Origin: a virus
Strand: one strand, 5' to 3'
Length of the DNA: 31,301 bases
IMG/VR virus record: IMGVR_UViG_3300030102_001928
Coordinates: 1,702 to 33,002 of that record
Shown: positions 5,473-31,301 of the stretch, one piece after another
Position numbering within the stretch: position 1 is the stretch's first letter
Layout of the letters: every line of letters starts with the position of its first letter
Notes under the pieces: generated by a model
What the model was told of the DNA's origin: nothing
Seen by the model: only the letters and a program-made list of their open reading frames with translations
The model's database searches: none
Made by a program: the position numbers and the translations under genes

Positions 5473-7159
5473 TTATTTAAAAGATTCTAAATTTGGTCAA
5501 GTAGCCACTAGTTTATTAGGTCAAGGAAAAAAAACAAAACGTAGAGACTTTGTTTACAGTTTACTCGGTGGGTTCTTGAAAGGCCAACAGAGAAGATTAA
5601 AACAAGGTTTGAATGATGCTTACAATAATTTACAAATGGAGTACGATAGTATTTTTAGAAATAATCAAGCTAAGTATGAATTATCAAAAGATGATAGAGC
5701 TGACTATCAAAGTTACCTTAAAGACCCTGAAGAGTTTAAAAGACTAAAAGGTATTGAACTATTTAATAAAGACCCTTCAATTTTAGCTTCAGGTAAAAAC
5801 TACTCACAAATAAGCGAGTTAGACCCTGAAAGTAAAAAGTATGCTTTAGAACTCTACAATAAATATCAAGATGAAGCAGAAAAAGACATTCAAAGACTAG
5901 GTAAAGCTCCAGAAGTTTCTATGGCTACTTATGAAATGTATAACAAACCATTTCAAGATTCTTATAAAGCTAAATATGCTGCTTTAAGTAATGACCCAGC
6001 TAAACAAAACTTACTTAATTATTATGCTGAAAAATTATTTCCTAATATGTTTGTAGCTGAAAGAGGTAAATACGAAGTAGCTGTTGAGAATGCCGAGGCT
6101 AATAAGAAAGCTCAAAATAGAATGAGTTTAAATTATGTCAAGCCTCTTGAACAGCAAGAACAAGAAGATAACCAAGCAAGTGTAGATAATATTAATAAAG
6201 CAGCTCAAGAAGTTGAGATGCCTATGCTTTATACTTCAGCTGAAAGGTTAAAGCTAGATAAAAATAGTTTTTTAAATAAAATAAATCAATCTGGTTATAA
6301 ATTAACTTTAGAAGATTTAGATAAAGCTGCTGTTTTAGGAGTAGAGCTACCGGGCTTACCGGGCTTTAATGACCTTATTGCTGATGATAGACCTATCTTA
6401 CAGTCAGCTTTTGTTAAAGCTCAAAAAATAAAGTCAGAGGGGCAAAACCCACTTGATGTTTTAATGGGTAGAGAAAAAGATGTTTATGCGATAGCTTTAG
6501 GTACAACTGCTATGGATTATGATAAGAGAAATATGGATTTTGAATCTTCTGAACTAAGATTAGAAAGCATGAAGCAACCTGACCCTGCTAAAGCACAAAG
6601 AACTACTAGCCAATATGAAGCTGAAGTAAGAAATGCAGATACTAGAGCAGCTGTCCGTAATACTATCCTTGATGTAGTTGCTCAACAACCAGAATTACCT
6701 GAAAGTTTTGCAAACTTTAACGATTTATTACAGAGTGATTTAAAAACTTCAGCTGGTAAACCTGCAGAAGAAAGTTTTATTACTCAAGTTATTAGAACAG
6801 CTCAACAGCTACAAGAAGATTATCCACAGTTTCAAACTAGAGAAGGGGTAGGAAGGTCTTATCGAGAAGCTGTTAAAATTCAATTATCTGGCATACAACA
6901 AACTCAAGCCGGTAGTTTATTTCAAGGCCGAGAATTTATTTATGAACCTGTTGATTCAAAATGGATGGCTTTGTTAGATAAAGACTCTTTAAATCAAAAA
7001 GATGCTGATTACTTTATTTATGGTTTAAATAACTATGGTTATACAAAAAATATTGACCCTACTTTAGAGAATAAAGCCGGTAATCAACTTATTCAAGGCC
7101 CTTATAGGTTTTATGTTAGAAACGATGGTTTCTGGGACTATGAAATTATAGAGGAGTAA
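5465..7159 (+). CDS. Putative internal virion protein (ejection-type)
   Basis: 564 residues, largely helical and Gln/Lys/Asp-rich, no signal peptide. Residues 49-57 repeat LNDAYNNLQ found at the C-terminus of the gene two upstream. The size and position directly before a 1203-residue protein mirror the medium and large core protein arrangement of T7-like phages (gp15, gp16), although I see no sequence motif that proves homology. GAGG-type ribosome site lies inside the preceding gene. The gene ends two bases before a TTG start. Confidence 0.75.
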   Translation: MSDYLKDSKFGQVATSLLGQGKKTKRRDFVYSLLGGFLKGQQRRLKQGLNDAYNNLQMEYDSIFRNNQAKYELSKDDRADYQSYLKDPEEFKRLKGIELFNKDPSILASGKNYSQISELDPESKKYALELYNKYQDEAEKDIQRLGKAPEVSMATYEMYNKPFQDSYKAKYAALSNDPAKQNLLNYYAEKLFPNMFVAERGKYEVAVENAEANKKAQNRMSLNYVKPLEQQEQEDNQASVDNINKAAQEVEMPMLYTSAERLKLDKNSFLNKINQSGYKLTLEDLDKAAVLGVELPGLPGFNDLIADDRPILQSAFVKAQKIKSEGQNPLDVLMGREKDVYAIALGTTAMDYDKRNMDFESSELRLESMKQPDPAKAQRTTSQYEAEVRNADTRAAVRNTILDVVAQQPELPESFANFNDLLQSDLKTSAGKPAEESFITQVIRTAQQLQEDYPQFQTREGVGRSYREAVKIQLSGIQQTQAGSLFQGREFIYEPVDSKWMALLDKDSLNQKDADYFIYGLNNYGYTKNIDPTLENKAGNQLIQGPYRFYVRNDGFWDYEIIEE

Positions 7160-10100: not shown

Positions 10101-10773
10101 AATTAGAGAAGCAGATAAAAAAGCTGGTCCTCAAAGACCTGATAAAGAAGTAGTTCCTTTTGCAACAGGTGGTTTAGTCTCAGGACCAGAAGTACCTTTT
10201 ACCCAAGAGAACCCAGCAGACCGTATCAACCCTTTGACTGGTGAACCTTATCAAGAACAGATGAGTCGGCTAGGTTTTTCCGGAGGTGGACATAATAGAC
10301 TTGAAGGTCAGATAATTTTAGATGAAGATGTAATTGAAACAACTATTCCTTCTTTTTACTTAAAAAAAGATGGCACACCTGCTCCGGTTAAGTTAAAACC
10401 TACTGTAGCTAATATGGTATATGAAGCCTTAAAAAATACTACTACTCCTTTAAAAATAGTAGATAGTTATGTTAGAAGTGATGTAAAAGAACAAACTTAT
10501 AAGACCTACTTGAAAGAGTTACAAGAATACCAAGAAGGTAAAAGAAAAAATAAACCACCAAAACAAGCAGGAATTAAATCTTTTCATATTCAAGGACAAG
10601 CTTTTGATTTAAATCAACCTTTCTATGAAGGTTTAGGTTTAAGGTCTAAAGATGGAGTGGCAATAAAAGAACCTAAAGAATTTACAGAATTAAAAAATGC
10701 GTTACTTGAGCAAGGCTTTAAGCAACATCCTAATGAATGGTGGCATTTTAGTTATGGAGAATTTATAAACTAA
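7162..10773 (+). CDS. Giant internal virion / ejection protein with C-terminal M15 peptidoglycan peptidase
   Basis: 1203 residues starting at TTG with GAGGAG at 7151-7156, five bases upstream; no better ATG is nearby. The N-terminal about 1000 residues are helical with hydrophobic patches near residues 119-135, 220-240 and 850-865, as in large ejection proteins that enter the host envelope. The last about 140 residues carry the zinc peptidase M15 (VanY/VanX, D-Ala-D-Ala cleaving) signature: His1142-x-x-Gly-x-Ala-x-Asp1149 and Glu1192-Trp-Trp-His1195-Phe, which supply zinc ligands and the catalytic Glu. T7 gp16 instead has an N-terminal transglycosylase, so the enzyme type and end differ. It likely opens the cell wall during DNA entry, and could also be the lysis enzyme since no separate endolysin is in the window. 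Confidence 0.88.
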   Translation: MSLRDNFKTKQEVFIQRPIETYTLNDLRNDDEFNERTTRFLQSIGEGKTADDLFGYFRGMEYNLGDATQAMFQTKKFDDQQKDDYLYLKNKFDNANVGDWVEWARTSADIGQEILTDPTMIASALFIPWTGGTSLAARLSAGKAVQTGLKVAANKTVQEGTKKGFAAMPGQVLKKPLTPIQTHALVGTEGMLYGSSYDFLRQNREINVGQREDYNLGETLTTGALGGVLGYGASFGIRHIANTPSYLRSIEERRLAKIDHNESYKDNVLEKINQAALYGMTLFTKPTSSFLLKAKKSKTLSELIKVFRYDAEKPILAEAAGTTPRMKESYNETLNEFIGTRLEGLKGILNKYNLYELGQRDIVGSFRKKTLLKSYRLSEKTNNDLTKYLRTGNKVGLDDNIVKAGDEVRGLLNEILEQARKEGLNVGEVENFFPRVWLLDSMKNNKAAFINQIRQDEKLSVAEATELWKRMTNLNQVDGTSAANLASIRAKRKLLNIDDSKYSQFLDNNVENVLQDYIFQAGKLITRKKLFGENLEEFRNRFVNKIDDELGGTGLGKVERDKLENLYLFTTGQRGYINNPVGRFLSDTIAVTTQTSLLPFAAITSLSEIGVPLLKGANTKQYAKAVWKGLADSADEWWNGVQTAFGREGAKPEGRSLNRRELNAFNRSIDMAREDRATAIYGQAMGRTATKIQNVFFKSIFLHDWTRFVQLVSYDTGKGIIYRNLDELANKQLNKKTTARLADELNELGVDVNKGIQWIKNGANHTDDFYMQDVRRGAARYTDEVIMNPTVASNQKPLIHSHPATKWSFGLLGFPTAFSNTVLKNAVREISKDLSNTNRLATPKVLSGILVMTAAGLVGNTLRTGGRNLQEYREGEKPLVSSLTARAEEKETGLINDALIRTGLYGPFEYYVRTQEAQRYQNNVTSLLTSLTGPAVGDILDYVRASQYRGATLEAVFKKAPFITVLRSQFPETYQETLKAIREADKKAGPQRPDKEVVPFATGGLVSGPEVPFTQENPADRINPLTGEPYQEQMSRLGFSGGGHNRLEGQIILDEDVIETTIPSFYLKKDGTPAPVKLKPTVANMVYEALKNTTTPLKIVDSYVRSDVKEQTYKTYLKELQEYQEGKRKNKPPKQAGIKSFHIQGQAFDLNQPFYEGLGLRSKDGVAIKEPKEFTELKNALLEQGFKQHPNEWWHFSYGEFIN

Positions 10774-11365: not shown

Positions 11366-11652
11366 TGAATACACGAACGTGGATGGACATTTTAGAAACT
11401 GTTGGAATTCCAGCAGCTTTTGCTGTAGCTGCAGGTTGGATGGTTTGGAAACTATTTAATCATTTAATAGCAGATGTTCATAAAAAATTAGATACCCAAC
11501 ATGGCATGATAGTAGCTTTAATAGATAGGATAAGACAAATAGACAACGATATAATAAGAATAGACACAATGTGTCGCACAGCTATGGGTATACCTGTAGA
11601 TGTAGATAGGTTAGCAAGGGCAGATGGAAAGAAAGACCAACGAAAAGATTGA
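11365..11652 (+). CDS. Small one-helix membrane protein (holin- or spanin-like)
   Basis: 95 residues. One hydrophobic segment at about 14-32 (VGIPAAFAVAAGWMVWKLF), then a helical region with heptad-like Ile/Leu spacing and a basic C-terminus DGKKDQRKD. Start overlaps the preceding stop (TAATG). Such short anchor-plus-coil proteins occur beside holins in marine phages. The 3' end contains the ribosome site of the csgF-like gene, so translation of the lysis-like and curli-like genes is linked. Confidence 0.65.
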   Translation: MNTRTWMDILETVGIPAAFAVAAGWMVWKLFNHLIADVHKKLDTQHGMIVALIDRIRQIDNDIIRIDTMCRTAMGIPVDVDRLARADGKKDQRKD

Positions 11653-11659
11653 GGAGATT

Positions 11660-12133
11660 ATGTTAAAAACTATAGAACTAACCCTATTGATTGCAGGGTT
11701 TTTAGTTATGACGTTAAGTGTTAGCGGTAATATCTTTGCCGATGAGTTAGTACATAAATTTAAGTCGCCATCATTTAGTGGCATCAATAGCTCAGCTCAT
11801 TACCTAACCATAGAGAATCAAGAGTTTAATAGAAAGGCAGCTATTGAAGCTGAAATCAGAGCTTATCGAGAAGAGCTAGAAAGAGAAGCAGACAATACAA
11901 CTCTAGCAAGATTTATCAGAAACTTAGAATCAAGAATATATGCTCAACTATCCAGACAACTAGTAGATGCTTTGTTTGGTGAAAACCCAAGTACTTTCGG
12001 GACTTTAGAGCTAATGGGTAACACCATAGAATACAGTGTTAGTGCTGATGGCACTATGATTACATTAAAGATTACAGATGCAGAAGGGAATGTTACAGAG
12101 ATTACTGTTCCTATCGGTTCTTTTACTTTCTAG
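11660..12133 (+). CDS. csgF: CsgF-like curli assembly protein
   Basis: 157 residues from ATG 11660, which follows GAGGAG (11651-11656); an in-frame ATG at 11624 would add 12 charged residues and spoil the signal peptide. Residues 1-29 form a Sec signal peptide ending near IFA-DEL. The mature N-terminus 'ELVHKFKSPSFSG' aligns with the conserved CsgF start (F-x-N-P-x-F-G-G in E. coli), the part that inserts into the CsgG pore. The C-terminus has the family's beta-rich 'TLKITDAEGNVTEITVPIG' against E. coli's 'LNVTDRKTGQTSTIQV'. CsgF couples secreted subunits to nucleation at the outer membrane. Its last 56 nt encode, in the +1 frame, the signal peptide of the csgG-like gene. Confidence 0.92.
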   Translation: MLKTIELTLLIAGFLVMTLSVSGNIFADELVHKFKSPSFSGINSSAHYLTIENQEFNRKAAIEAEIRAYREELEREADNTTLARFIRNLESRIYAQLSRQLVDALFGENPSTFGTLELMGNTIEYSVSADGTMITLKITDAEGNVTEITVPIGSFTF

Positions 12134-12896
12134 TTGTTCAAGTCTTAGACATAGTTCTCTCCTAGATGAGAATGTTATAGGAGCTTATTCAAAGAAAAGA
12201 CCAAGTACCGTATTAGAGTTACAGTCAGAGGAGTTAAAAAACTTAAGACCGGCTAAGCTTAAGCCGACTATTGCTATTTATCCTAATAGCTTCACAGACC
12301 TAACAGGGCAAAGAAAGAGTAACAGTACCTTTGCTTTATTCAGTTCTGCTATTACACAGTCACCTGATGCTTTACTTATCAGAGCTTTTAAACATGCTGC
12401 AGATGGTCAGTTTTTTACAGTTGTCGAGAGAGTAGGCTTAGATAACCTAACCAAAGAACGACAAATAATTAGAACAACCCGTAAGGACTTTGAAGATAAT
12501 ACAGAGTTAAACCCTCTTATCTTTGCAGGTCTACTGGTTCAGGGTGGGGTCATTTCGTATGACACGAACCTAAAAAGTGGTGGTAATGGTGCTAGATATC
12601 TAGGTATTGGCATGAGCCGTCAGTATCGTGAGGACACTGTCACAGTATCTTTACGATTAGTTTCTGTTAATACCGGAGAGATATTAATAGAAGTACTAAC
12701 ATCAAAGACTATCCTATCTGTAGGAGTCTCTAACGATGTCTTTAGATTCATTGAAGCTGGGACAGAGTTAGTAGAAATAGAATCTGGTGTTACACAAAAT
12801 GAAAGTGTATCTATTGCTCTCCAGAAAGCGATAGAGACAAGTGTACTAGAAATAGTACAACAAGGAATAGAGAGGAGATTTTGGAGTTATGAATAG
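12078..12896 (+). CDS. csgG: CsgG-like curli secretion pore lipoprotein
   Basis: 272 residues (E. coli CsgG is 277). Lipobox Leu-Ser-Ser-Cys20 gives an outer-membrane lipoprotein. Strong family blocks: 'KSGGNGARYLGIG' and 'VNTGEILIEVLTSKTILS' nearly match E. coli 'KSGGVGARYFGIG' and 'VSTGEILSSVNTSKTILS'; also FRFIE, SVSIALQKAIETSV and IERRFW near the end. CsgG forms a nonameric 36-strand pore. In the constriction loop Phe88 seems to align with E. coli Phe56, while Asn55 looks replaced by Leu (by eye). Start could be ATG 12078 or 12090; both keep the signal peptide. The whole signal peptide is encoded inside csgF in the +1 frame: the lipid-modified Cys codon begins two bases after the csgF stop. 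Confidence 0.95.
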   Translation: MQKGMLQRLLFLSVLLLSSCSSLRHSSLLDENVIGAYSKKRPSTVLELQSEELKNLRPAKLKPTIAIYPNSFTDLTGQRKSNSTFALFSSAITQSPDALLIRAFKHAADGQFFTVVERVGLDNLTKERQIIRTTRKDFEDNTELNPLIFAGLLVQGGVISYDTNLKSGGNGARYLGIGMSRQYREDTVTVSLRLVSVNTGEILIEVLTSKTILSVGVSNDVFRFIEAGTELVEIESGVTQNESVSIALQKAIETSVLEIVQQGIERRFWSYE

Positions 12897-13593
12897 AATA
12901 ATTATATTGTTAGCTTTCTTAGGCTTTATGGTTAAAGCCGATAATGAAATATACATCAATCAAGTTGGTGCAACTTTAAACTTAGATGTTGAACAGCTAG
13001 GTGGTTCCAACCTTATTGGTGGTCTTGATGCTGCTTCAGGTCAGATGACTGCTCTAGAATTAGCTGGTAGTTCTATGACCTTAGACATCAATCAATTAGG
13101 GGATTCCAACAAATTTATTGGAGACATTGTCCTAGATTCACTAGTAGGTTTTTTTGAATTTGACGGTGATAGTAATATATTTGAAATTCAAGTAGACCCA
13201 ACAGATACTTATAGTGCCGATGGCGGTAACTATAATGTTGACGTTACAGGGTCAAGCAATGAATTTGAATTAAATATTGCTACCAATGCTTTAGCAGAAT
13301 ACTTAGACCTCGACTGGGTTATCAATGGTGATTCAAATACCATAGACTACACAATAGATGTCGATGGAGCTACATCCTATCTAGATATAGATGGTGACTC
13401 AAACAGTTTAGTCTACAATGGTAGTGGCTATGCTGATGGTTACTTTTATCTAGACCAAACAGGGGATAGCCGAGCATTTAATATTACACAGAGTTCAACC
13501 TTAGCAAGTGATTGGCTTAAGATTATTTCTACTGGCAATAGTGGTACTGTCTGCATCATACAAAATGATGGCGGCACCAGCACAAGTTGCTAG
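12889..13593 (+). CDS. Curlin-repeat fibre subunit (CsgA/CsgB-like)
   Basis: 234 residues with a signal peptide (about 1-17, ending VKA). The mature part has about eight repeats, each with alternating hydrophobic residues, a Q-x-G or D-x-G turn and Gly-x-Ser-Asn: GGSN 38-41, GDSN 71-74, GDSN 93-96, GSSN 121-124, GDSN 147-150, GDSN 169-172, GDSR 192-195, GNSG 216-219. Spacing is mostly 22-28, close to the 22-23 of curlin repeats (x-I-x-Q-x-G-x-x-N-x-x-x-I-x-Q). Gln is often replaced by Asp, so it is a diverged, acidic curlin, expected to form a beta-solenoid amyloid strand. Two Cys (222, 234) close the C-terminus. It lies 8 nt inside the csgG end, so it is the natural substrate of that pore (inference). 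Confidence 0.82.
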   Translation: MNRIIILLAFLGFMVKADNEIYINQVGATLNLDVEQLGGSNLIGGLDAASGQMTALELAGSSMTLDINQLGDSNKFIGDIVLDSLVGFFEFDGDSNIFEIQVDPTDTYSADGGNYNVDVTGSSNEFELNIATNALAEYLDLDWVINGDSNTIDYTIDVDGATSYLDIDGDSNSLVYNGSGYADGYFYLDQTGDSRAFNITQSSTLASDWLKIISTGNSGTVCIIQNDGGTSTSC

Positions 13594-14623
13594 TATAGGA
13601 AGCATAACAGAACTAAAAGGCTTAGGGAGAGTAGTAAGGGAACAAGACCCCTTTGCTGCTGCTCTCTCCTTTGCTATTAATAGTTTTGATAATGTTGAGA
13701 CTTCTAATGGTCGGATAGGCATTACCTTTCTTGACGAATCTCAAGTCCGTCTCACAGAACATTCACAATTAGTTATAGATGAGTTTATCTATGACCCTGA
13801 CCCATCTAAATCTAAGATGGCTCTACAGTTTGCTAGTGGCACAGCTAGGTTTATTAGTGGCAAACTAGCTACTATCAATAAAGAAAACATATCTATCGAG
13901 ACTCCTAGTGCTACCATTGGTATTAGAGGCACAGACTTTACTGTTACTGTTGATGAACTCGGTAGGTCTTTGATAATACTACTACCAGATGAGAACGGTA
14001 TTGCTTCCGGTGAGATAGTTGTTTCTACTCTAGTAGGACAAGTAGTTCTCAACAAGCCCTATCAAGCTACTACAGTTGAGTTGTTTGAGTCGGCACCTAG
14101 TAGTCCTGTTATCCTAGACTTGACTCTAGATATTATTGACAACATGTTGATTGTCAATCCACCAAAGGAAGACCCAAACTTTGTTAGCGAAGAAGAACAA
14201 ACAGATGGCTCTGATAATATCCTAGACATAGACTACTTAGAGTTTGATGAACTAGAACAAGACTACTTAGCAGAAGATAACCTAGAGTTTACCGAACTTG
14301 ACATCAATTACTTAGATGTAAATTTCTTAGAAGACCTCTTGAGCATCATAGAGGAAGTAGATGAGTTAGAACAAAATGTTTTGAACACTGGTGATATTAA
14401 TGTTCAAGGCACAGCTTTTGGTTTTGACTCTAACACACAGGTAAATACTTTTGTTACTGACACAGTGCTAACTTTCTTAAGACAGGTAGAAGACACAGTA
14501 AGATTAGATTTAGATACGAACAACAGTTACAAGGTTTTAATTATACAAGATGGCAAAGCAATTACTATTACTCTTAATGGCGGTAGTGACTCTTCCATTA
14601 CTATCAAGCAGTCTTCCGGCTAA
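13508..14623 (+). CDS. Exported FecR-domain protein with acidic repeat region and curlin-like C-terminus
   Basis: 371 residues from GTG 13508, the first possible start after an in-frame stop and the only one giving a signal peptide (Arg5 then LFLLAIVVLSA); no clear ribosome site, so the start is uncertain, and ATG 13565 is the alternative. FecR domain at about residues 65-185: 'GRIGITFLDESQVRLTEHS', 'LQFASGTARF', and the hallmark IRGTDF at 139-144. Residues about 235-290 are acidic with repeating Tyr-Leu and Phe-Leu pairs. The end 'VLIIQDGKAITITLNGG' then 'SSITIKQSSG' looks like one to two curlin-type strands. FecR proteins relay envelope signals; FecR genes often neighbour CHASE2-cyclases in bacteria. 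The first 86 nt overlap the curlin gene in the +1 frame. Confidence 0.85.
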   Translation: MIGLRLFLLAIVVLSASYKMMAAPAQVASIGSITELKGLGRVVREQDPFAAALSFAINSFDNVETSNGRIGITFLDESQVRLTEHSQLVIDEFIYDPDPSKSKMALQFASGTARFISGKLATINKENISIETPSATIGIRGTDFTVTVDELGRSLIILLPDENGIASGEIVVSTLVGQVVLNKPYQATTVELFESAPSSPVILDLTLDIIDNMLIVNPPKEDPNFVSEEEQTDGSDNILDIDYLEFDELEQDYLAEDNLEFTELDINYLDVNFLEDLLSIIEEVDELEQNVLNTGDINVQGTAFGFDSNTQVNTFVTDTVLTFLRQVEDTVRLDLDTNNSYKVLIIQDGKAITITLNGGSDSSITIKQSSG

Positions 14624-14993
14624 GCCTGATATCTATTGGCGGATTACTAAAGCACCTTACCTCAACAAACCAGAGGCTTATGTAGATTACAGTCTACCCA
14701 AAGCTCAGCTACATTTTAAACTACAAGAAAAACCTTACCAAGAATTTATAGCCTTACAGCTTTTGGATATCTATACCACACACAGAGCTGTCAATATTAA
14801 AGGCTATGCTTTAGAAGCTAATCCTCTACTACCCAAACAACCTTCCTTAGAGTTGTTACTAGTTCTTAAAGGTGCTAGTAGTTATTTGATTATTAGAGAT
14901 GCTTCTCCTCAACAGATAACAAATATCAATACTCTGTATCGCTTAGTACTGCTCAATAATCTTTACGTCATGCATAAAGCAGGTGACTTATGA
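14550..14993 (+). CDS. Small membrane protein between FecR and cyclase (DUF5658-like)
   Basis: 147 residues. Residues 3-20 are a very hydrophobic signal or anchor (QLLLLLMAVVTLPLLSSS), encoded in the +1 frame of the FecR gene end over 74 nt. After a soluble stretch, 'LLDIYTTHRAV', 'EANPLL' and a later Lys in a hydrophobic segment 'LLLVLKGASSYLII' recall the D-x-x-T and E-x-N-P pattern of DUF5658 membrane proteins; a last segment lies at about 126-141. The match is by eye and moderate. Its stop overlaps the cyclase start by 4 nt (ATGA), so it is translated together with the cyclase and may be its membrane partner (inference). Confidence 0.7.
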   Translation: MAKQLLLLLMAVVTLPLLSSSLPAKPDIYWRITKAPYLNKPEAYVDYSLPKAQLHFKLQEKPYQEFIALQLLDIYTTHRAVNIKGYALEANPLLPKQPSLELLLVLKGASSYLIIRDASPQQITNINTLYRLVLLNNLYVMHKAGDL

Positions 14994-16720
14994 AGTGGGC
15001 GAGTTTACTTTTATTTCTACTAACACTACCTCTAGTCTTTAATGCTCCGCCTCTTGAGATACTAAGACTCAAAACCTTTGATGCCCTTGTCAAGACTCCA
15101 GAGCCTACTGGTTACTTTACTATCCTTAACATTGATGAAGAGTTTATAGACCAGCAAGGCGGTTACCCTTTACCTCGGCAGACCTTAGCAGATATTCATC
15201 TTAAATTACTACAACAAGGAGCATTAGGAGTTGGCTGGACGATACTCTTTCCTCATCCTGATAGACTAGGAGGCGATGAAGCCTTTGCTGAGATGCTTGG
15301 TTTAGCTCCTAGTGTCATAGCAATGCCCGAAGTAAATAATAATAAATATCCACAGACACACGGGACAGTTATCTTAGGACCCGATGTTAGTTTAGTACAT
15401 GCTTCAGGATTTTTAGAAAACATCCAAGTCTTAAAAGACTCTGCAGCTCAAGGAGCTGTGTCAGTGCCGGTTGATATAGATAACCTAGTTAGACAGATAC
15501 CTCTTATCCAACAAACTCCAGATGGTTGGGTAGCTTCTTTCGGTACAGAAGTTCTCAAGATACTAGGAGGTGGTAATACTTATCAAATCAAAACTAATGA
15601 GAATGGTATAGAGATGATAAGAGTAAAAGGTATACCACCTATCTCAACAGATTCGACAGGTAAGAAATGGATTAGTTGGGTCGAAACACCAGAGACTAAC
15701 CTAACTGAAATGGATGTGCAGGGTAAGTTTGTCTTTGTTGGTTTTACTGCAGCAGGAATACAAAGACAACTAGCAACTCCTGTGGGTTTGTTAGAGCCAC
15801 ATAAAATTCAAGCAGCTCTAGCTGAGTCTATTTTATTAGAGACACCCAACATACCGGACTATCGTTTGTTTGCCGAACTAAGTATCTTAGTAGTAGCTGG
15901 TTTACTAGTGGCTATCTTAACTGGTTTCTTAGGTATTACTACAGGCTTAGTCTCAGCCTTAACTATCTTTGGTGGAGTAGCTTATCTTGGTTGGTCTTTT
16001 ATACAGCAGAATCTTTTAATAGATGTTACATGGACTCTAATAAGTTTGTTTCTGATTGCTGCTCAACAGTTCTATCTAAACTTTAGAACTCAGTTTAAAC
16101 TTAGACAACAAATCAAGAAGCAGTTTTCTACTTATCTTGACCCTCGACAAGTAGCTAGGCTACAAAAGAATCCAGAGTTATTAAGATTAGGTGGTGAACG
16201 AAGAAACTGTACGATAATGTTTACCGATGTCAGAGGTTTTACTTCTATGTCAGAGAAACTAGAACCAGAAGAAGTTATTGAGATAATGAACAAAGCTTTA
16301 ACTATTCAAGCAGATGCGGTCAAAGCTAACGAAGGGATGGTAGATAAATATATTGGCGATGCTATGATGGCAGTTTGGAATGCTCCAGTAGATGTTGAGA
16401 ACCATGAACAGAAAGCTATTGAGACAGCCCTTCAAATACGACACGCAATGCAAGAAGCACAGTTAGATATTGAAATTGGTATTGGAATAAATTCTGGAGA
16501 AGTTGTTGCAGGAAATATGGGTAGTGCATCTCGTTTTGAATATAGTGTATTAGGCGATGCTTGTAATCTAGCAGCTCGATTAGAGTCTTCATGTAAAACA
16601 GTAGGTAAAAATTTAGTTATAGGTGAGGCAACCATCAGCAAATATGAGGGTGAAGTAACAGAGTTAGAGTCTATTCTTGTCAAAGGTAAGGAAAAACCAG
16701 TAAAAATCTACACAATATAG
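14990..16720 (+). CDS. CHASE2-sensor, transmembrane, class III adenylate/guanylate cyclase
   Basis: 576 residues. Order: N-terminal membrane helix (about 3-18), CHASE2 extracytoplasmic sensor (about 25-290, with 'FDALVKTPEPTGYFTILNID' and 'GWTILFPHPDRLGGDEAFA'-type blocks), three membrane helices (about 293-365), short helical linker, and class III cyclase domain (about 400-576). Catalytic residues are all visible: metal-binding Asp413 (FTDVRGF) and Asp457 (KYIGDAMMA), base-selecting Lys453 and Asp523 (LGDACNLAARLES), transition-state Asn526 and Arg530. Lys plus Asp favours ATP, hence cAMP. The cytoplasmic product would reprogram host CRP-type regulation. Last gene of the plus-strand cassette, ATGA-coupled to the gene before it. 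An intact sensor cyclase in a phage is very unusual. Confidence 0.95.
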   Translation: MKWASLLLFLLTLPLVFNAPPLEILRLKTFDALVKTPEPTGYFTILNIDEEFIDQQGGYPLPRQTLADIHLKLLQQGALGVGWTILFPHPDRLGGDEAFAEMLGLAPSVIAMPEVNNNKYPQTHGTVILGPDVSLVHASGFLENIQVLKDSAAQGAVSVPVDIDNLVRQIPLIQQTPDGWVASFGTEVLKILGGGNTYQIKTNENGIEMIRVKGIPPISTDSTGKKWISWVETPETNLTEMDVQGKFVFVGFTAAGIQRQLATPVGLLEPHKIQAALAESILLETPNIPDYRLFAELSILVVAGLLVAILTGFLGITTGLVSALTIFGGVAYLGWSFIQQNLLIDVTWTLISLFLIAAQQFYLNFRTQFKLRQQIKKQFSTYLDPRQVARLQKNPELLRLGGERRNCTIMFTDVRGFTSMSEKLEPEEVIEIMNKALTIQADAVKANEGMVDKYIGDAMMAVWNAPVDVENHEQKAIETALQIRHAMQEAQLDIEIGIGINSGEVVAGNMGSASRFEYSVLGDACNLAARLESSCKTVGKNLVIGEATISKYEGEVTELESILVKGKEKPVKIYTI

Positions 16721-16739
16721 GCTAAATGCTGTGAGAGCT

Positions 16740-16824
16740 ACAGATATCGCTTCTAAGCAATTTTGTTAGATTTTGGACGTATAGTATTACTTGAATATCT
16801 TACGTTCGATACAAGCGATTCTGT
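16740..16824. repeat. Long-range inverted repeat in the convergent junction
   Basis: ACAGATATCGCTT (16740-16752) and AAGCGATTCTGT (16813-16824) are reverse complements except for one bulged base, enclosing about 60 nt. The 5' part of the right arm is shared with the adjacent terminator-like hairpin, so the two structures compete. It lies between the convergent cyclase and minus-strand genes; a role in transcript end formation or RNA stability is possible but unproven. Confidence 0.4.
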
Positions 16825-16853
16825 GAGGTCATTTTTTCACAGATTTAGTTTTT
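16820..16853 (+). terminator. Likely terminator after the cyclase operon
   Basis: TCTGTGA and TCACAGA form a perfect 7-bp stem with a 10-nt loop (GGTCATTTTT), followed on the plus strand by TTTAGTTTTT. It sits about 100 nt after the cyclase stop and ends the long plus-strand block. The T-rich tail overlaps the stop of the minus-strand gene ending at 16845. On the minus strand no T-run follows, so it is probably one-directional. GC content of the stem is low, so strength is uncertain. Confidence 0.55.
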
Positions 16854-17063
16854 CAGAGCATTAACTTCTTTTTCTAGAAATTTATGTAGTGGTTCGAGTT
16901 TAACTCTACCATTCCTAACAATACTCTTAATAATTTCTCTTTCATGTAGAGGAAAAATAATATCAATCTTGTTTTCTGGCAACATACTAAACTCTGTTAC
17001 AATTTTGTTTTCTCTAGTTAATAAAACTTTAAAGCTAATTAAGTTTGCTTCTTTATTATTCAT
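16845..17063 (-). CDS. Unknown small protein downstream of nrdB
   Basis: 72 residues, last gene of the minus-strand block. Its start overlaps the nrdB stop by 8 nt, which supports it being real. Composition is mixed and charged, with 'FPLHEREIIKSIVRNGRVK' in the middle suggesting a helix with basic patch. No known motif; I cannot assign a function. Its stop abuts the terminator-like hairpin of the opposite operon. Confidence 0.7.
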   Translation of the reverse strand: MNNKEANLISFKVLLTRENKIVTEFSMLPENKIDIIFPLHEREIIKSIVRNGRVKLEPLHKFLEKEVNALKN

Positions 17064-18039
17064 TTATATTTTCTAAGTTACTAAAGGTAACTTTATCTTG
17101 TCTACCTCTTAAACCAGCTTTCATGTAAGAAGTGGCTCGGCCTTCAAAGAAGTTTTGATGTTCAACACCCATAACTTCATCTAACCAAGTAAGAGGATTT
17201 TCTTTTTGATTGTAATTAGTTTTAAGACCTAATTGTAAAAGTCTTCTATCTGCAATATAACGATTGTACTTGTACATATCTTCTTTAGTTAGCCCTTGAA
17301 TGTTACCCATCTCAAAAACTAAGTCTAAGAATTTATCTTCTAACTCAACCATCTGTCTGCAGATATCATATATTTCTTTTTTAAATTCATCAGTCCAGAT
17401 ATCTATGTTCTCTTGAATGAATTGTCTAAACAGTTTAGTCATAGCTTCAACATGCATAGATTCATCACGAATAGAATAAGTTACTATCTGTCCCATGCCT
17501 TTCATCTTACCGAACCTTGGAAAGTTTAATAAGATTGCAAAGCTACTAAATAATTGTAGCCCTTCGGTAAAGGCTGAGTAGACTGCTAAAGTTTTAGCTA
17601 TACTTCTTTTATCTTGTCTAGTAGTTTTAATATCATTGATGTATTCATGTTTGTCGGACATCTCTTCATACTCAGCAAAAGCTTTGTATTCATTGTCAGG
17701 CATACCAACAGTATCAAGTAATAAACTATAGGCATGTTGATGGATAGACTCCATGTTTGCAAATGAACCCATCATCATACGAGCTTCTGGCTTTCTAAAT
17801 ATTCTCATGTATCTATCAATATAACCTGCACCAACATCAACATCTGATTGAGTAAACAATCTAAAGATTTGTGTTAGTAAATTCTTTTCCACATCTGAAA
17901 GGTCTTGCCAGTCTTTAACATCTGTATGTAGTGGCACGGACTCCGGCATCCAATGCATTTGATTCTGTAGGACGTAGTAATCAAACATCCATGCATCGTC
18001 AAACGGTTTATAGTATTCTCTATTATTTAGTAAACTCAT
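17056..18039 (-). CDS. nrdB: Class I ribonucleotide reductase small (beta) subunit
   Basis: 327 residues (E. coli NrdB is 376). The di-iron and radical residues are in place: Asp66, Glu97, His100 and radical Tyr104 in 'ESIHQHAY', 31-, 3- and 7-residue spacings as in E. coli; then Glu in 'TEGLQLFSSF', and Glu/His in 'RDESMHVEAM'. The 'FTQSDVDVGAGYIDRYM' block is typical of phage and bacterial forms. It makes the tyrosyl radical that NrdA uses to reduce ribonucleotides, supplying dNTPs for phage DNA. The 5' end overlaps the small gene before it by 17 nt; four small genes separate it from nrdA or follow it, an arrangement common in phages. Confidence 0.96.
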   Translation of the reverse strand: MSLLNNREYYKPFDDAWMFDYYVLQNQMHWMPESVPLHTDVKDWQDLSDVEKNLLTQIFRLFTQSDVDVGAGYIDRYMRIFRKPEARMMMGSFANMESIHQHAYSLLLDTVGMPDNEYKAFAEYEEMSDKHEYINDIKTTRQDKRSIAKTLAVYSAFTEGLQLFSSFAILLNFPRFGKMKGMGQIVTYSIRDESMHVEAMTKLFRQFIQENIDIWTDEFKKEIYDICRQMVELEDKFLDLVFEMGNIQGLTKEDMYKYNRYIADRRLLQLGLKTNYNQKENPLTWLDEVMGVEHQNFFEGRATSYMKAGLRGRQDKVTFSNLENINE

Positions 18040-28506: not shown

Positions 28507-28690
28507 AATTTTCTCCGTTTAGTTAAGTGCTAGTTCTGTTTTGTGTGTCTAAACTAGCAAGAGACACGCACATCTTGGCTTTGTTGTTTATCGTCTGTTC
28601 AAACCCCTCGCTAAATGAGAAAAATCAGACTAGTTGTTTACACTTTTAAAGTCGTCCAACAGTCAACAACATACTGTTGGGGAGACATGG
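28507..28690. other. Non-coding gap with a perfect hairpin
   Basis: 184 nt without a gene. Next to the gene ending at 28691 lies CCAACAGT (28656-28663), 9-nt loop, ACTGTTGG (28673-28680), a perfect 8-bp stem with no T-run on either strand. It may be a processing site, protein-binding site or weak terminator. TTGTTTAC at 28634-28641 recurs in other gaps. No convincing promoter was found for the following minus-strand genes. Confidence 0.55.
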
Positions 28691-29002
28691 TTAGTGAACT
28701 CCTTCCATTCTCTGAACAGAACCAGTAACTTCAGCTAATTTGCTTTCCATCCAATTTATATTTTCTTGATAGAACGGCACATTCTCCTGAACGGCTATTT
28801 GTCTAGCTAGTTCTTGAGTTGCTGACCAAAGATTATGATCCAATTCTTCTAAGTCTTCGCACATATGACTTAATATGTTCTCTAACTTAGCTTCATTCTT
28901 TTTGGTATCAGGACAAGTCATAAGGAGAAAGAAGCACACGGCTACTCTCTCCTTAGCATTCTTAGGATTTTCGATTAATTGATCTACATTTACTTTCTTC
29001 AT
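28691..29002 (-). CDS. Unknown small helical protein
   Basis: 103 residues from ATG 29002, one base after the preceding stop; a longer frame to 29038 would overlap that gene and adds unrelated residues. Begins MKKVNVDQLIENPKN; acidic, helical, with 'MTCPDTKKNEAKLENIL' and 'NLWSATQELARQIA'. No motif recognised. Second gene of the leftward early block. Confidence 0.68.
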   Translation of the reverse strand: MKKVNVDQLIENPKNAKERVAVCFFLLMTCPDTKKNEAKLENILSHMCEDLEELDHNLWSATQELARQIAVQENVPFYQENINWMESKLAEVTGSVQRMEGVH

Positions 29003-29003
29003 G

Positions 29004-29402
29004 TTAAGCCCCAAATTTATTTTTAAGTGAGTCAACAAGCTTATCGAAGTCTACTGAGTCACCTAGATTTGCTAAGACTACCTCAGTCTCAATTTTACTT
29101 CTAAGACCCTTGTCGTCCCATTTGAAGTTACCATTGAAATGATAGTTATACTCATTAGCGTATTCAAAGTTAGGATTACTCATTTCTTTGTTGAAAGCTT
29201 TGTGAAGTTTCTTTAGCTTCTTTTCGCAATCGTCAATCTCTGATTTCTTATCTTTGATGGCTTGTTTACAAGCTTGGATATCAAGCCACTTTTGGTTACT
29301 CTGCATTTCGGTTTCAAGCTTAGATATGCTCTCAGTCCTGATCTCGTTGTATGCTCTATCAACGAGTATATTTCTTTCGTTAATGGTTAGTTTTCTAGCC
29401 AT
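29004..29402 (-). CDS. Unknown coiled-coil protein, first leftward gene
   Basis: 132 residues. Basic N-terminus (MARKLTINERN), then helices with 'KQAIKDKKSEIDDCEKKLKKL' as a coiled coil, an aromatic-rich patch 'NPNFEYANEYNYHFNG', and a C-terminal helical part. AAGGAG lies 8 nt before the ATG. It is the first gene leftward from the divergent control region, so likely expressed early; function unknown. Confidence 0.72.
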   Translation of the reverse strand: MARKLTINERNILVDRAYNEIRTESISKLETEMQSNQKWLDIQACKQAIKDKKSEIDDCEKKLKKLHKAFNKEMSNPNFEYANEYNYHFNGNFKWDDKGLRSKIETEVVLANLGDSVDFDKLVDSLKNKFGA

Positions 29403-29443
29403 ATTAATTCTCCTTATAGTTAATGTGAGTATGTATGGCTTTG

Positions 29444-29471
29444 TTTATTCTTACTAAAGAGCTGGTATCAA
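29444..29471 (-). promoter_or_regulatory. Possible leftward early promoter
   Basis: Minus strand TTGATA (29471-29466), 16-nt spacer, AATAAA (29449-29444). The -35 has 5 of 6 and the -10 has 4 of 6 consensus bases. Transcription would start near 29437 and reach the first leftward gene after about 35 nt. The 16-nt spacer equals that of the strong SSB promoter. Confidence 0.4.
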
Positions 29472-29609
29472 TTTAAATGCTTACCACTTTGTGTGCATAC
29501 CATACATAAACACAAGTATTAGTTAATCATATGTTAGACATGTTGTAAACAGTTTATACATAATAAATAGAGTTATTTGGGGGTAGAGTAGGGGTTAAAC
29601 TGCATACCC

Positions 29610-29632
29610 TCGCTCTCTCAGTCGCTCTCTCA
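29610..29632. repeat. Tandem 11-nt direct repeat
   Basis: TCGCTCTCTCA occurs at 29610-29620 and again at 29622-29632, separated by one G. It lies just before the GTCGGG cluster in the control region. Possible iteron-like or protein-binding site. Confidence 0.7.
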
Positions 29633-29642
29633 AACAAAATCC

Positions 29643-29669
29643 GTCGGGTCGTCGGGTCGGGTCGTCGGG
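29643..29669. repeat. GTCGGG cluster (four copies)
   Basis: GTCGGG starts at 29643, 29651, 29656 and 29664 (spacing 8, 5, 8). Further copies lie at 30084, 30095 and 30919, all in or at the edge of non-coding DNA in this right part. This GC-rich word stands out in AT-rich sequence. It may be a binding site in the control region. Confidence 0.65.
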
Positions 29670-29726
29670 TTAGACAATAAAATGTCTGTATGGACAGTAT
29701 AACACACATAACACAACACAACACAA

Positions 29727-29747
29727 CCAGGAGCTAAGATCTCCTGG
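29727..29747. repeat. Hairpin in the leader of the first rightward gene
   Basis: CCAGGAG (29727-29733), loop CTAAGAT, CTCCTGG (29741-29747): perfect 7-bp stem. No T-run follows, so it is not a standard terminator. It lies about 115 nt before ATG 29862. TATAAC at 29698-29703 could be a -10 box just upstream, though no good -35 box is spaced with it. Confidence 0.55.
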
Positions 29748-29861
29748 AAGCCAGAGTCACTTATGGAAAAGGTTGTGGATAAAAAAAGATCTTCACATTA
29801 CTTGACTTCATGTCTACTTCATGTAACTATAAGCACATACATTATTAAAAGGAGAAATGAT

Positions 29862-30083
29862 ATGTCTTTATACAAATACTTAGGAATTTACGGCCAATAC
29901 TTAGTTGGCAACAATATGGCTGACACAAGAGCTCATGCTATTGAGAAAGGTCTGCGAGAATTATTGAGTGCAGTTAACGGTTGTGATGATCGTAACTTGG
30001 CTCTGTTCAAGAAACACGAGCCTGATCTGTATAACGGCTTGGTTAGATATGCCAAGATACAGATGGAGCGAGTGCCCGAGTAA
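29862..30083 (+). CDS. Unknown small protein, first rightward gene
   Basis: 73 residues from ATG 29862, with GGAG 7 nt upstream; a longer frame from 29763 lacks a ribosome site. Begins MSLYKYLGIYGQYLVG, then helical 'AIEKGLRELLSAVNGCDD' and 'DLYNGLVRYAKIQMERV'. No motif known. Stop lies in the loop of a CCCGA/TCGGG pairing, next to a longer hairpin. Confidence 0.68.
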   Translation: MSLYKYLGIYGQYLVGNNMADTRAHAIEKGLRELLSAVNGCDDRNLALFKKHEPDLYNGLVRYAKIQMERVPE

Positions 30084-30093
30084 GTCGGGGACA

Positions 30094-30122
30094 AGTCGGG
30101 AACGCTACTAGCGTTTTCGGCT
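30094..30122. repeat. Strong hairpin after the first rightward gene
   Basis: AGTCGGGAACGCT, loop ACT, AGCGTTTTCGGCT: a 13-bp stem with three G-T pairs, core AACGCT/AGCGTT perfect. It starts 10 nt after the stop of the gene ending at 30083. No T-run follows, so it may protect the mRNA end or bind a protein. Confidence 0.55.
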
Positions 30123-30163
30123 GACTCTACGAGGTAAGTACTACACAATAGTTAACACATCCC

Positions 30164-30200
30164 CCTGGAGCTTGAGCTTCAATAGAAGCCAGGTTTTCTT
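30164..30200 (+). terminator. Weak terminator-like hairpin
   Basis: GCTTC-AATA-GAAGC (30176-30189) is a 5-bp stem with a tetraloop; CCTG (30164-30167) and CAGG (30190-30193) extend it across an 8-nt bulge on one side. TTTTCTT follows. It would end transcripts from the first rightward gene before the next promoter. Confidence 0.35.
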
Positions 30201-30222
30201 AAAGGATCTATTTAATTAATAC

Positions 30223-30250
30223 TTGACTTATTGTTTACCTGTGGTAGACT
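30223..30250 (+). promoter_or_regulatory. Likely rightward sigma70 promoter
   Basis: TTGACT (30223-30228), 16-nt spacer, TAGACT (30245-30250); TATAGA directly after is another -10 candidate. The leader to ATG 30348 is about 90 nt. The spacer contains TTGTTTACC, also found in the promoter region near 31066. Confidence 0.5.
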
Positions 30251-30347
30251 TATAGATAAGTTGCTTTTGGTGAGGTTGATTTGCATTTCTCCTGGGAAGT
30301 AAAGCAGACGGTCATTCAGAAGCAGCTTTTATATAGGAGAATGGAAA

Positions 30348-30545
30348 ATGAGTAATTGTGAAGTATGCAATGATAAAGGTTGGTTAAAAGTATATGGAAG
30401 ACTTGGAGATGAAATCCAAGTTTGCCAAACTTGTTATAAACTTAATTCTGATAAGGAAGCATATCAAAAAGCTAGTTTAGAAATAGATGTGTCAAACTTT
30501 AAATATGATAATTTTGTTTTTAATCTTAAGGAGAATGGAAAATGA
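30348..30545 (+). CDS. Small zinc-ribbon protein
   Basis: 65 residues. Cys4-x-x-Cys7 and Cys26-x-x-Cys29 ('CEVCNDKGWLKVYG', 'IQVCQTCYK') form a likely zinc ribbon of the DnaJ or rubredoxin-knuckle type. The rest is acidic, helix then strand. AGGAGAATGGAAA precedes the ATG. The stop overlaps the next ATG by 4 nt. Early small zinc proteins in phages often bind host proteins or nucleic acids; no specific role can be named. Confidence 0.72.
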   Translation: MSNCEVCNDKGWLKVYGRLGDEIQVCQTCYKLNSDKEAYQKASLEIDVSNFKYDNFVFNLKENGK

Positions 30546-30862
30546 AAGAAGATCAAAGAGATCAAGCACACGCTGAGTATTATTTAAAGCAGGTGATACC
30601 TAAAGGGTCAGCAATATTTACTACTGTTATGCAGGTCGCCCCTTCGGGCATGTCCAGGCACATTAAAGTAATGAGGCCACATGTAGATGAAGTTGAGAAT
30701 ATATCCTATTTTGTCGCCGAAGCCCTGGGCCTACCCTACAGAGAGAAAACAGGATCTGTATTCGTGAGTGGGTGCGGTATGAATATGTGTTTTTGGTTAG
30801 CGTATGAATTAGGCGAACTCTTATATGGGGACGGTTACTCAGTCAAGTATCGTAATGTTTGA
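30542..30862 (+). CDS. Conserved-looking phage protein of unknown function
   Basis: 106 residues. The pattern 'KGSAIFTTVMQVAPSGMSRHI' then 'SYFVAEALG' and 'VSGCGMNMCFWLAYELGELL' matches a small phage family I recall from many tailed phages (G-M-S-R and G-C-G-M-x-M motifs), with no known function. Starts in an ATGA overlap with the zinc-ribbon gene; GGAGAATGGAAA ribosome site lies in that gene's end. Confidence 0.75.
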   Translation: MKEDQRDQAHAEYYLKQVIPKGSAIFTTVMQVAPSGMSRHIKVMRPHVDEVENISYFVAEALGLPYREKTGSVFVSGCGMNMCFWLAYELGELLYGDGYSVKYRNV

Positions 30863-30929
30863 ACTTGTTTTTATATTAGTTATTGTCCTGGCCTGGTTGG
30901 CTGATAATTCGGGATCGGGTCGGGACTAA
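30855..30929 (+). CDS. Possible 24-residue membrane peptide
   Basis: ATG 30855 overlaps the preceding gene end by 8 nt and opens a 24-codon frame: MFELVFILVIVLAWLADNSG and a short polar end. One hydrophobic helix with a charged tail. There is no separate ribosome site, so it would rely on coupling. It may be chance, since short hydrophobic frames arise easily in T-rich DNA. Confidence 0.3.
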   Translation: MFELVFILVIVLAWLADNSGSGRD

Positions 30930-31029
30930 GTAAGAGGAATCAGTCGGAACGATCGGTATGCCATAACACAATAAGAACACACGAAGCCCAGGCGCAAAAT
31001 GTATGTATCATGTTCGTTATTCCTTAGTC
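30924..31029. other. Possibly structured non-coding RNA region
   Basis: GACTAAG (30924-30930) plus GGAAT (30936-30940) can pair with ATTCC (31019-31023) and CTTAGTC (31023-31029) across about 80 nt, with a 5-nt bulge. Inside, ACGAA (30981-30985) can pair with TTCGT (31013-31017). The two pairings nest. The stretch holds no convincing gene. Confidence 0.3.
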
Positions 31030-31065
31030 TGGGTGGAGTGTCTTAAAAAATAATTGAATTAATTG

Positions 31066-31098
31066 TTGTTTACCCCTTGTAAGTGTTACTACTATATG
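31066..31098 (+). promoter_or_regulatory. Possible rightward promoter for the last gene
   Basis: TTGTTT (31066-31071), 18-nt spacer, TACTAT (31090-31095), or TTTACC (31069-31074) with 18 nt to TATATG (31093-31098). Transcription would start about 20 nt before ATG 31127. It shares TTGTTTACC with the promoter region near 30231. Confidence 0.42.
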
Positions 31099-31126
31099 TA
31101 TACTTATTAATAAGGAGTTAATGAAT

Positions 31127-31301
31127 ATGAAAATTAAATTCATAATTGAAAACGAAAACGGTGTCCAGCTACTAGCTGGTGCTGAGACTGAGTTGAGAGA
31201 CTTAGTTGTTAACGGTATACAAGTTGTTAGAGATAGTAACTTGCATGTAGAAGATACTAGACAAGTTCTAGGTAATACTGACATCAATAATGTCATGCAC
31301 T
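31127..31301 (+). CDS. Unknown protein, 3' end outside window
   Basis: At least 58 residues, open at the right edge. ATG 31127 has AAGGAG (31112-31117) at 9 nt; ATG 31121 in the same frame is only 3 nt from it. Begins MKIKFIIENENGVQLLAG and continues 'LRDLVVNGIQVVRDSN'. Strand-rich, acidic; no motif seen. Likely an early rightward gene with its own promoter. Confidence 0.68.
   Translation, partial: MKIKFIIENENGVQLLAGAETELRDLVVNGIQVVRDSNLHVEDTRQVLGNTDINNVMH

Follow-up and report, generated by a model that had tools for sequence, protein, structure and literature searches.

Strand-specific TCGGG repeats at the early-gene boundaries of a viral genome and its relatives

An important question raised by the divergent region of this virus is what a short, clustered G-rich word does where the two gene directions part. 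We analysed a stretch of 31,301 nucleotides ('the window'; bases 1702–33002 of the 33,002-base virus record IMGVR_UViG_3300030102_001928), in which the leftward genes end at 29402 and the rightward genes start at 29862, so that 29403–29861 is a divergent region. A sequence-only reading had noted seven copies of GTCGGG here, next to a tandem pair and several hairpins, and had suggested either a replication origin or a regulator-binding array. Overall, our data show that the TCGGG array is real and conserved and that it marks early-gene boundaries in a strand-specific way, with evidence for a role in RNA at one site. Since related phages keep its layout, some of them in another spelling, it seems to be a control element and not an origin of replication.

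The repeat and its setting in the window

GTCGGG occurs seven times on the + strand of the window (starts at 29643, 29651, 29656, 29664, 30084, 30095 and 30919) and not once on the − strand, against a mean of 1.12 and a maximum of 4 in 100 dinucleotide shuffles of the window, none of which reached seven. The proposed count over the full genome gave the same result: the whole record holds these seven and none outside 29643–30924, i.e. the even spread that would have spoken against clustering is not found, and the same word read backwards occurs once per strand. Since two of the GTCGGG copies share one G, the core is TCGGG, which is present ten times on the + strand and once on the − strand of 29403–31120; none of 2000 shuffles of this stretch reached ten copies, or four within 26 nt. 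When all pentamers with three or more G/C are compared, four-fold clustering in 26 nt is confined in the window to TCGGG and its two frame-shifted forms, and no pentamer of this kind is so clustered in any of 60 shuffled windows. The feature extends beyond 30122 to site C (table 1). A genome-wide role of the Chi or KOPS type was rejected, because all seven GTCGGG copies of the record are confined to the control region; it is also disfavoured by a 47 kb array-bearing record, G012, with only 24 and 7 TCGGG on its two strands.

Table 1. Features of the control region and the first rightward genes (promoters and hairpins are predictions; positions in the window).
Feature	Position	Strand	Basis and remarks
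Promoter P0, first rightward early, TAGACA-18-CATAAT	29535–29564	+	consensus scan; upstream of array A; stretch conserved in relatives
Leader hairpin GGGGGTA...TACCCTC	29579–29611	+	window fold; 2 of 200 shuffles equally stable
Tandem TCGCTCTCTCA pair	29610–29632	+	boxA-like by eye
Array A, four TCGGG, spacing 8-5-8	29643–29669	+	word counts, shuffles, relatives
AACACA-rich stretch	29700–29729	+	sequence; recurrent after clusters
Hairpin CCAGGAG/CTCCTGG before P1	29727–29747	+	3 of 200 shuffles equally stable
Promoter P1 (TTGACT...)	29802–29830	+	permissive scan, not in stricter scan; 133 nt after array A
Early gene 1, 73 aa	29862–30083	+	without family match; swapped between relatives
Site B, two GTCGGG in conserved RNA element	30082–30160	+	inner stem 30094–30106 with 30110–30122
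Promoter P2, TTGACT-16-TAGACT with GTTTAC-N5-GTAGAC	30223–30250	+	scans; 123 nt after site B
PHROG 12365 homologue, unknown function	30542–30862	+	E 6.5e-16; anchor for finding relatives
24-aa hydrophobic ORF MFELVFILVIVLAWLADNSGSGRD	30855–30929	+	last codons contain site C
Site C, three TCGGG	30909–30924	+	word counts, relatives
Hairpin GCCCAGGC...GTCTGGGT after site C	30979–31041	+	fold z −1.4, weak alone
Promoter P3, TTGTAA-16-TATACT	31077–31104	+	scans; 153 nt after site C

P0 is a weak prediction by itself, since a consensus scan of 29000–31301 found 6 promoter-like sites compared with 7.5 in shuffles. The leader hairpin has the same predicted fold in several relatives, and RNAalifold on the nine-sequence alignment favours another pairing. 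The tandem pair described earlier is present, with starts at 29610 and 29622; a pair of the type [GA]CT[CT]T[CT]TC is found in all nine aligned relatives, and we take TCGCTCTCTCA to be boxA-like on the strength of a partial match to the boxA consensus. The four copies with 8-5-8 spacing are there as well, and neither alignment nor folding revealed a conserved pairing partner or a convincing fold for the words of array A. For the AACACA stretch, Rho binding was considered. Two further candidates were discarded: a boxA-like GCTCTTTAGTA on the − strand near 29455–29470 (seen by eye in the window, L089 and L092) is missing in L111, L166 and L095, and GTTTAC-N5-GTARAC as a promoter dyad of the group has its exact form in only 3 of 11 loci (window, L092, L094), so that this dyad is at best degenerate.

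Ten proteins of the window were scanned, and those recognised were a T7-like primase-helicase, a family A DNA polymerase, both ribonucleotide reductase subunits, a Cas4-type nuclease and a virion protein. The DNA polymerase is nearest to those of the Pelagibacter phages HTVC115P (53%) and HTVC103P (51%), and by its sequence the window appears to come from a tailed phage related to pelagiphages, resembling phages of ocean bacteria. The record contains no terminase genes. A blastn search of a phage isolate collection with 28600–31301 gave zero matches; the PHROG 12365 gene matched 19 records in the phage collection, all of them Gordonia phages with less than 60% identity. Of the isolates closest by terminase, the first 45,000 bases of the nearest four contain no TCGGG array, and a host search, in which genome contigs were scanned with the terminase of the array-bearing records G012 and G009, yielded 177 pattern matches and no relatives.

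Two side observations concern the rest of the window. At 11624–16720 Pfam recognises CsgF, CsgG, FecR and CHASE2-cyclase genes in a phage, and an earlier paper describes a curli/FecR/adenylate cyclase cassette in pelagiphages (PMC9599517). Between 17056 and 29402, the replication module is near-identical to that of record G001 (most proteins 97–100%), the divergent region of which differs from that of the window and is free of TCGGG arrays; this combination points to a recent exchange of the module.

Layout, strand and spelling in relatives

Relatives were reached mainly through the PHROG 12365 gene, hereafter the anchor gene. The exact 27-base array A is found in two further viral contigs and a looser form in four, and the anchor gene as sole query gave one close relative; a four-sequence alignment of it then provided the best 80 of 461 relatives among 600 matches listed. 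In the resulting comparison of 161 sequences (the window, 80 primase loci and the anchor-gene loci, with duplicates removed), 35 show three or more same-strand TCGGG within 40 nt, and all 35 carry the anchor gene, which partly reflects the search route. Among 19 records searched over their whole length, 13 contain close TCGGG pairs and six do not. All 100 close pairs in these 13 records lie on the strand of the anchor gene, and the backwards control pattern matched once in total over the 19 records.

The group of the window comprises ten loci (L112 and L113 being nearly identical), with L186 added later. Its common order is a predicted promoter, a hairpin, two CGCTCTCTCA-like copies, array A with four TCGGG, AACACA-rich DNA, a hairpin region, a predicted promoter and a gene; L094 begins only 40 bases upstream of the array, and whatever precedes this point is outside its sequence. 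Array A has four copies in all ten loci, with spacings of 8-5-8, 7-7-8, 7-7-7, 7-5-8 or 7-8-8, and three TCGGG plus one TAGGG in L186. A sister group of 13 loci has different flanks with the same order and five to seven TCGGG, and L097 has four in yet another setting. In 23 loci we found 106 clusters of at least two TCGGG, of which seven at locus ends were dropped. A promoter-like site follows 20–220 nt downstream of 71 of the remaining 99 (median 110 nt; 40% at random positions), and an ACACA-type word lies within 130 nt of 83 (27% at random); the promoter pattern is permissive, the 99 include clusters upstream of array A, some of them inside terS, and the counts are not independent, since many loci are near-copies.

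Downstream of array A the sister group has 43 clusters, of which 21 coincide with a CCCG..CGGG hairpin followed by a T-run (88 of 3000 random segments do); among the other 22 are ORF-internal clusters and one case in which the T-run of the hairpin is interrupted. The consensus scan of the window gave no intrinsic terminator of this type on the + strand at sites A–C. At site C, relatives have similar short ORFs by reading, and the middle copy is gone while the outer two are kept in L089 and L166. L093, as a single contrast, has a similar peptide without the TCGGG words and without the promoter unit that follows it in the others. In the hairpin after site C, one stem pair is changed on both sides in two of eight sequences and another in one of eight. 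What is shared between genomes is also discontinuous: homology between the window and L089 breaks inside genes and resumes at site B (30073–30160) and at site C (30854 onward), and in L186 another gene, by reading, replaces the anchor gene. Separately, L089 (4478–4770), L094 (640–962) and L092 (10810–11140) have a conserved non-coding leader of about 300 nt before this gene, with a mean column identity of 77%, which by reading is missing in the window; it has no Rfam match, and the one sequence folded was no more stable than its own shuffles.

The spelling of the word is largely uniform within a genome and differs between related phages. We compared 81 anchor-gene loci, many of them near-copies. 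Three or more tandem TCGGG pairs are present in 34, and TCGGA or TCGGT pairs are absent from these except in L097 (two) and L140, L100, L101, L105 and L153 (one each); another 14 loci use TCGGA and/or TCGGT pairs, and of these only L128 (two) and L134 (one) also contain TCGGG pairs, while 33 have no pair of any of the three. In one terS clade of 17 loci, spelling needs at least three changes on the terS tree, where most forks are unsupported, so that few independent switches are seen. A residue next to the terS helix-turn-helix (position by eye) tracks spelling in 17 of 17 loci, i.e. K with TCGGA, S with mixed TCGGA/TCGGT, and R, A or N with TCGGG. With this residue masked, however, the tree shows only three label changes and keeps the K group as one branch (98/99), so that shared descent explains the match; the small terminase was rejected as the reader of the word, the match being limited to this clade and explained by descent. 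As a separate observation, CGAAYNATTGTTCG dyads occur around terS and the anchor gene in L136 (seven copies), L154 (six), L153 and L124 (five each) and L121 and L140 (one each), with none in L105 or the window.

RNA structure at site B and competing explanations

The hairpins noted by the earlier reading are real, and the one at 30094–30122 has comparative support. In an alignment of nine sequences, with L113 left out, the second GTCGGG of site B forms the 5' arm of a 13-bp stem in which 115 of 117 cells are paired, as compared with 26.5–50.4% in slid versions. Covariation is 0.464 against 0.306 ± 0.030 (0 of 500 shuffles); four pairs are changed on both sides, a count that alone is matched by 35 of 500 shuffles, and the structure was drawn from the sequences on which it was tested, which favours it. 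The GTCGGG arm is invariant and its partner arm variable. By hand count from the pairing table, 30 of 117 cells are G-U, and since these would be C-A mismatches on the other strand, they point to a + strand RNA. RNAalifold joins the first GTCGGG to CTCTACGA in its consensus structure, whereas the window folded alone prefers CCCGA/TCGGG at 30075–30089. A covariance model of site B scored at least 79.6 bits in 9 of 22 sources, one of which, L186 (100.7 bits), was held out of model building, and other matches were at 20 bits or less; sister-group sources gave no matches, and an Rfam search with the window, L089, L090 and L091 gave only one sub-threshold match, elsewhere, at 10329–10391.

This pairing bears directly on whether the word is read in DNA. 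A protein could bind duplex TCGGG about 110 bp upstream of early promoters and activate, repress or insulate them, which would suit the similar distances between clusters and promoter-like sites, the mostly uniform spelling per genome and the 11-nt word spacing at site B and between the outer words of site C. Arrays of an unrelated word, GCTTG, also stand directly beside TTGACA boxes ahead of gp33 and gp34 in the cultured phage HTVC027P. We nevertheless consider such an operator array rather unlikely: orientation is strict while spacings vary from 5 to 8 nt, site B covaries as RNA with G-U pairs, clusters lie behind terminators or in transcribed 3' regions, and the predicted first promoter P0 is without an upstream array. 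As to the regulator-binding array proposed earlier, its one-stranded arrangement ahead of early promoter-like sites, its conservation and its lineage spellings stand; the site B words, however, lie in an RNA hairpin and the binder is putative. A G-quadruplex or R-loop at array A, in RNA or non-template DNA, would account for the four GGG runs with loops of 2–5 nt, which are kept in all ten group-1 loci and in L186, where TCGGG has become TAGGG; four such runs are found at array A and not at sites B (two copies, paired in a hairpin) and C (three), TC before GGG is conserved without need and TCGGA lineages lack GGG, all of which makes this explanation very improbable. Equally hard to credit are mere recombination linkers, i.e. 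repeats promoting the exchange of small early genes with no regulatory role: genes in the same place do differ between relatives while boundaries match, but strict orientation, the covarying hairpin and uniform spelling would go unexplained.

Two further explanations place the array in DNA replication or packaging. P1 pac has short direct repeats near the small terminase gene, as do the arrays described here, which in G012 and G009, where both genes were seen, lie between the small and large terminase genes. The terS residue that follows spelling in 17 of 17 loci would fit a packaging site read by the small terminase, and so would SPP1 pac, of which sets of direct repeats close to this gene are described in PMC4737164. 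Packaging is improbable all the same: shared descent accounts for the residue match, other TCGGG phages have quite different helix-turn-helix sequences, and the repeats recur, unlike those of SPP1/SF6 and P1, at several early boundaries over 1–2 kb, with RNA covariation at one; the same source reports little sequence specificity in binding by the SF6 small terminase (PMC4737164).

The origin half of the earlier proposal, whether as iterons or as lagging-strand primase sites, fares worst and is highly improbable. Cumulative GC skew is indeed lowest at about 28.5–29.5 kb in the window, a perfect TGTGGATAA 9-mer, which we take to be DnaA-box-like, lies at 29774–29782, the window encodes a T7-like primase-helicase, and GGGTC resembles T7 primase sites. 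However, the skew turns at the point where gene direction switches, and in two longer array-bearing records, in the orientation used, the minimum is 6.6 and 23.5 kb from the array (4548 versus 11106 in G012; 252 versus 23771 in G009). TGTGGATAA recurs at 6820–6828 (two found, 0.32 expected; 3 of 100 shuffles reach two) and is present in only 3 of 11 loci of the group. The array neither travels with replication genes nor keeps to a single locus: G001 is without any close TCGGG pair despite a primase 100% and a DNA polymerase 99.3% identical to those of the window, G012 combines arrays with an unrelated set of Prim-Pol primase, Sak4, SSB and exonuclease VIII (G009 has similar gene lengths, compared by length alone), and there are several array sites per genome. 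Against primase sites in particular, GTC is not kept in other lineages, e.g. in the TTCGGG and ATCGGG runs of L140.

A possible boundary element of early transcription

We tentatively favour, at a probability of roughly 40%, a modular boundary element between successive rightward early transcription units that would act at least partly in nascent RNA. Its computed basis is the restriction to one strand, the recurrence ahead of promoter-like sites, the covarying site B hairpin, the sister-group terminators and the lineage spellings. At each boundary, same-strand TCGGG copies would usually be followed by AACACA-rich DNA, then a hairpin, then a promoter-like site that serves the next small gene, and the boundary would stay while genes differ between relatives. 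A phage or host factor, or the transcription machinery itself, might recognise the copies, as UCGG[G/A/U], in the nascent RNA, and those at a boundary may decide the fate of RNA polymerase or mRNA before the next promoter, i.e. by termination, antitermination or processing. Array A would be the boundary site of the first rightward transcript, placed in its leader behind a hairpin and a boxA-like tract. Several observations speak against this explanation: neither a conserved partner nor a convincing fold emerged for the words of array A, clusters also lie inside ORFs (terS in L100 and L105; the tiny ORF at site C; some of the 22 sister-group clusters that lack a terminator), 28 of 99 have no promoter-like site, and the site B model does not reach the sister group.

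Several known systems share parts of this organization. T4-type early gene cassettes have a mobile linker of promoter, terminator and initiation region (PeTPI), and here, too, small early genes are separated by a linker with hairpin or terminator, promoter and ribosome-binding site and are exchanged between relatives; predicted promoters after 71 of 99 clusters, hairpins, terminators at 21 of 43 sister-group clusters, the homology blocks of the window and L089 and the gene replacement in L186 all fit this pattern. Unlike PeTPI, the linker carries same-strand TCGGG spelled according to lineage, and its hairpin at site B covaries without being a terminator. In the antitermination sites of lambda nut and rrn leaders, boxB is followed by boxA; array A similarly follows a hairpin and a CGCTCTCTC tract, the tandem CGCTCTCTCA after this hairpin being conserved in the aligned relatives. 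In contrast to lambda nut, the match to boxA is partial, an N-like protein was not identified, and TCGGG repeats are not part of known nut sites. T7 has RNase III sites between its early genes, to which the intercistronic early-region hairpins and the predicted stem of about 20 bp at site B are similar, whereas the TCGGG arm is fixed in sequence and site B is known from its covarying stem alone.

In HTVC027P (L180), GCTTGNN heptamer arrays lie at 16506–17733, and two of them abut, by eye, TTGACA boxes about 50 bases upstream of gp33 and gp34, which form a separate temporal cluster according to PMC12753301. Like the TCGGG phages, HTVC027P has lineage-specific pentamer arrays between terS and terL, beside small-gene promoters. 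Our searches brought up no isolate that carries the TCGGG array, and HTVC027P is the closest analogue in culture. The likeness is one of analogy, as GCTTG abuts the −35 box whereas TCGGG lies about 110 nt upstream, and since the two words are unrelated, HTVC027P is only a pointer.

A search of the open-access literature found no description of such repeats. They might amount to an undescribed cis-code, in which each lineage would have its own factor that reads a strand-fixed UCGG[G/A/U] at early-gene boundaries in RNA; reader and spelling would change in step between lineages, and early genes would move as insulated cassettes only within one spelling group, a prospect we consider unlikely. A reader molecule is suggested by a short one-strand word that is largely uniform in a genome and differs from one sister lineage to another. 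Little is known about the ordering of early genes in such phages by means of the host RNA polymerase; HTVC027P, according to its authors, encodes no RNA polymerase, and none of its early genes has a known function (PMC12753301). If confirmed, the TCGGG element would mark early-gene boundaries in uncultivated marine phages.
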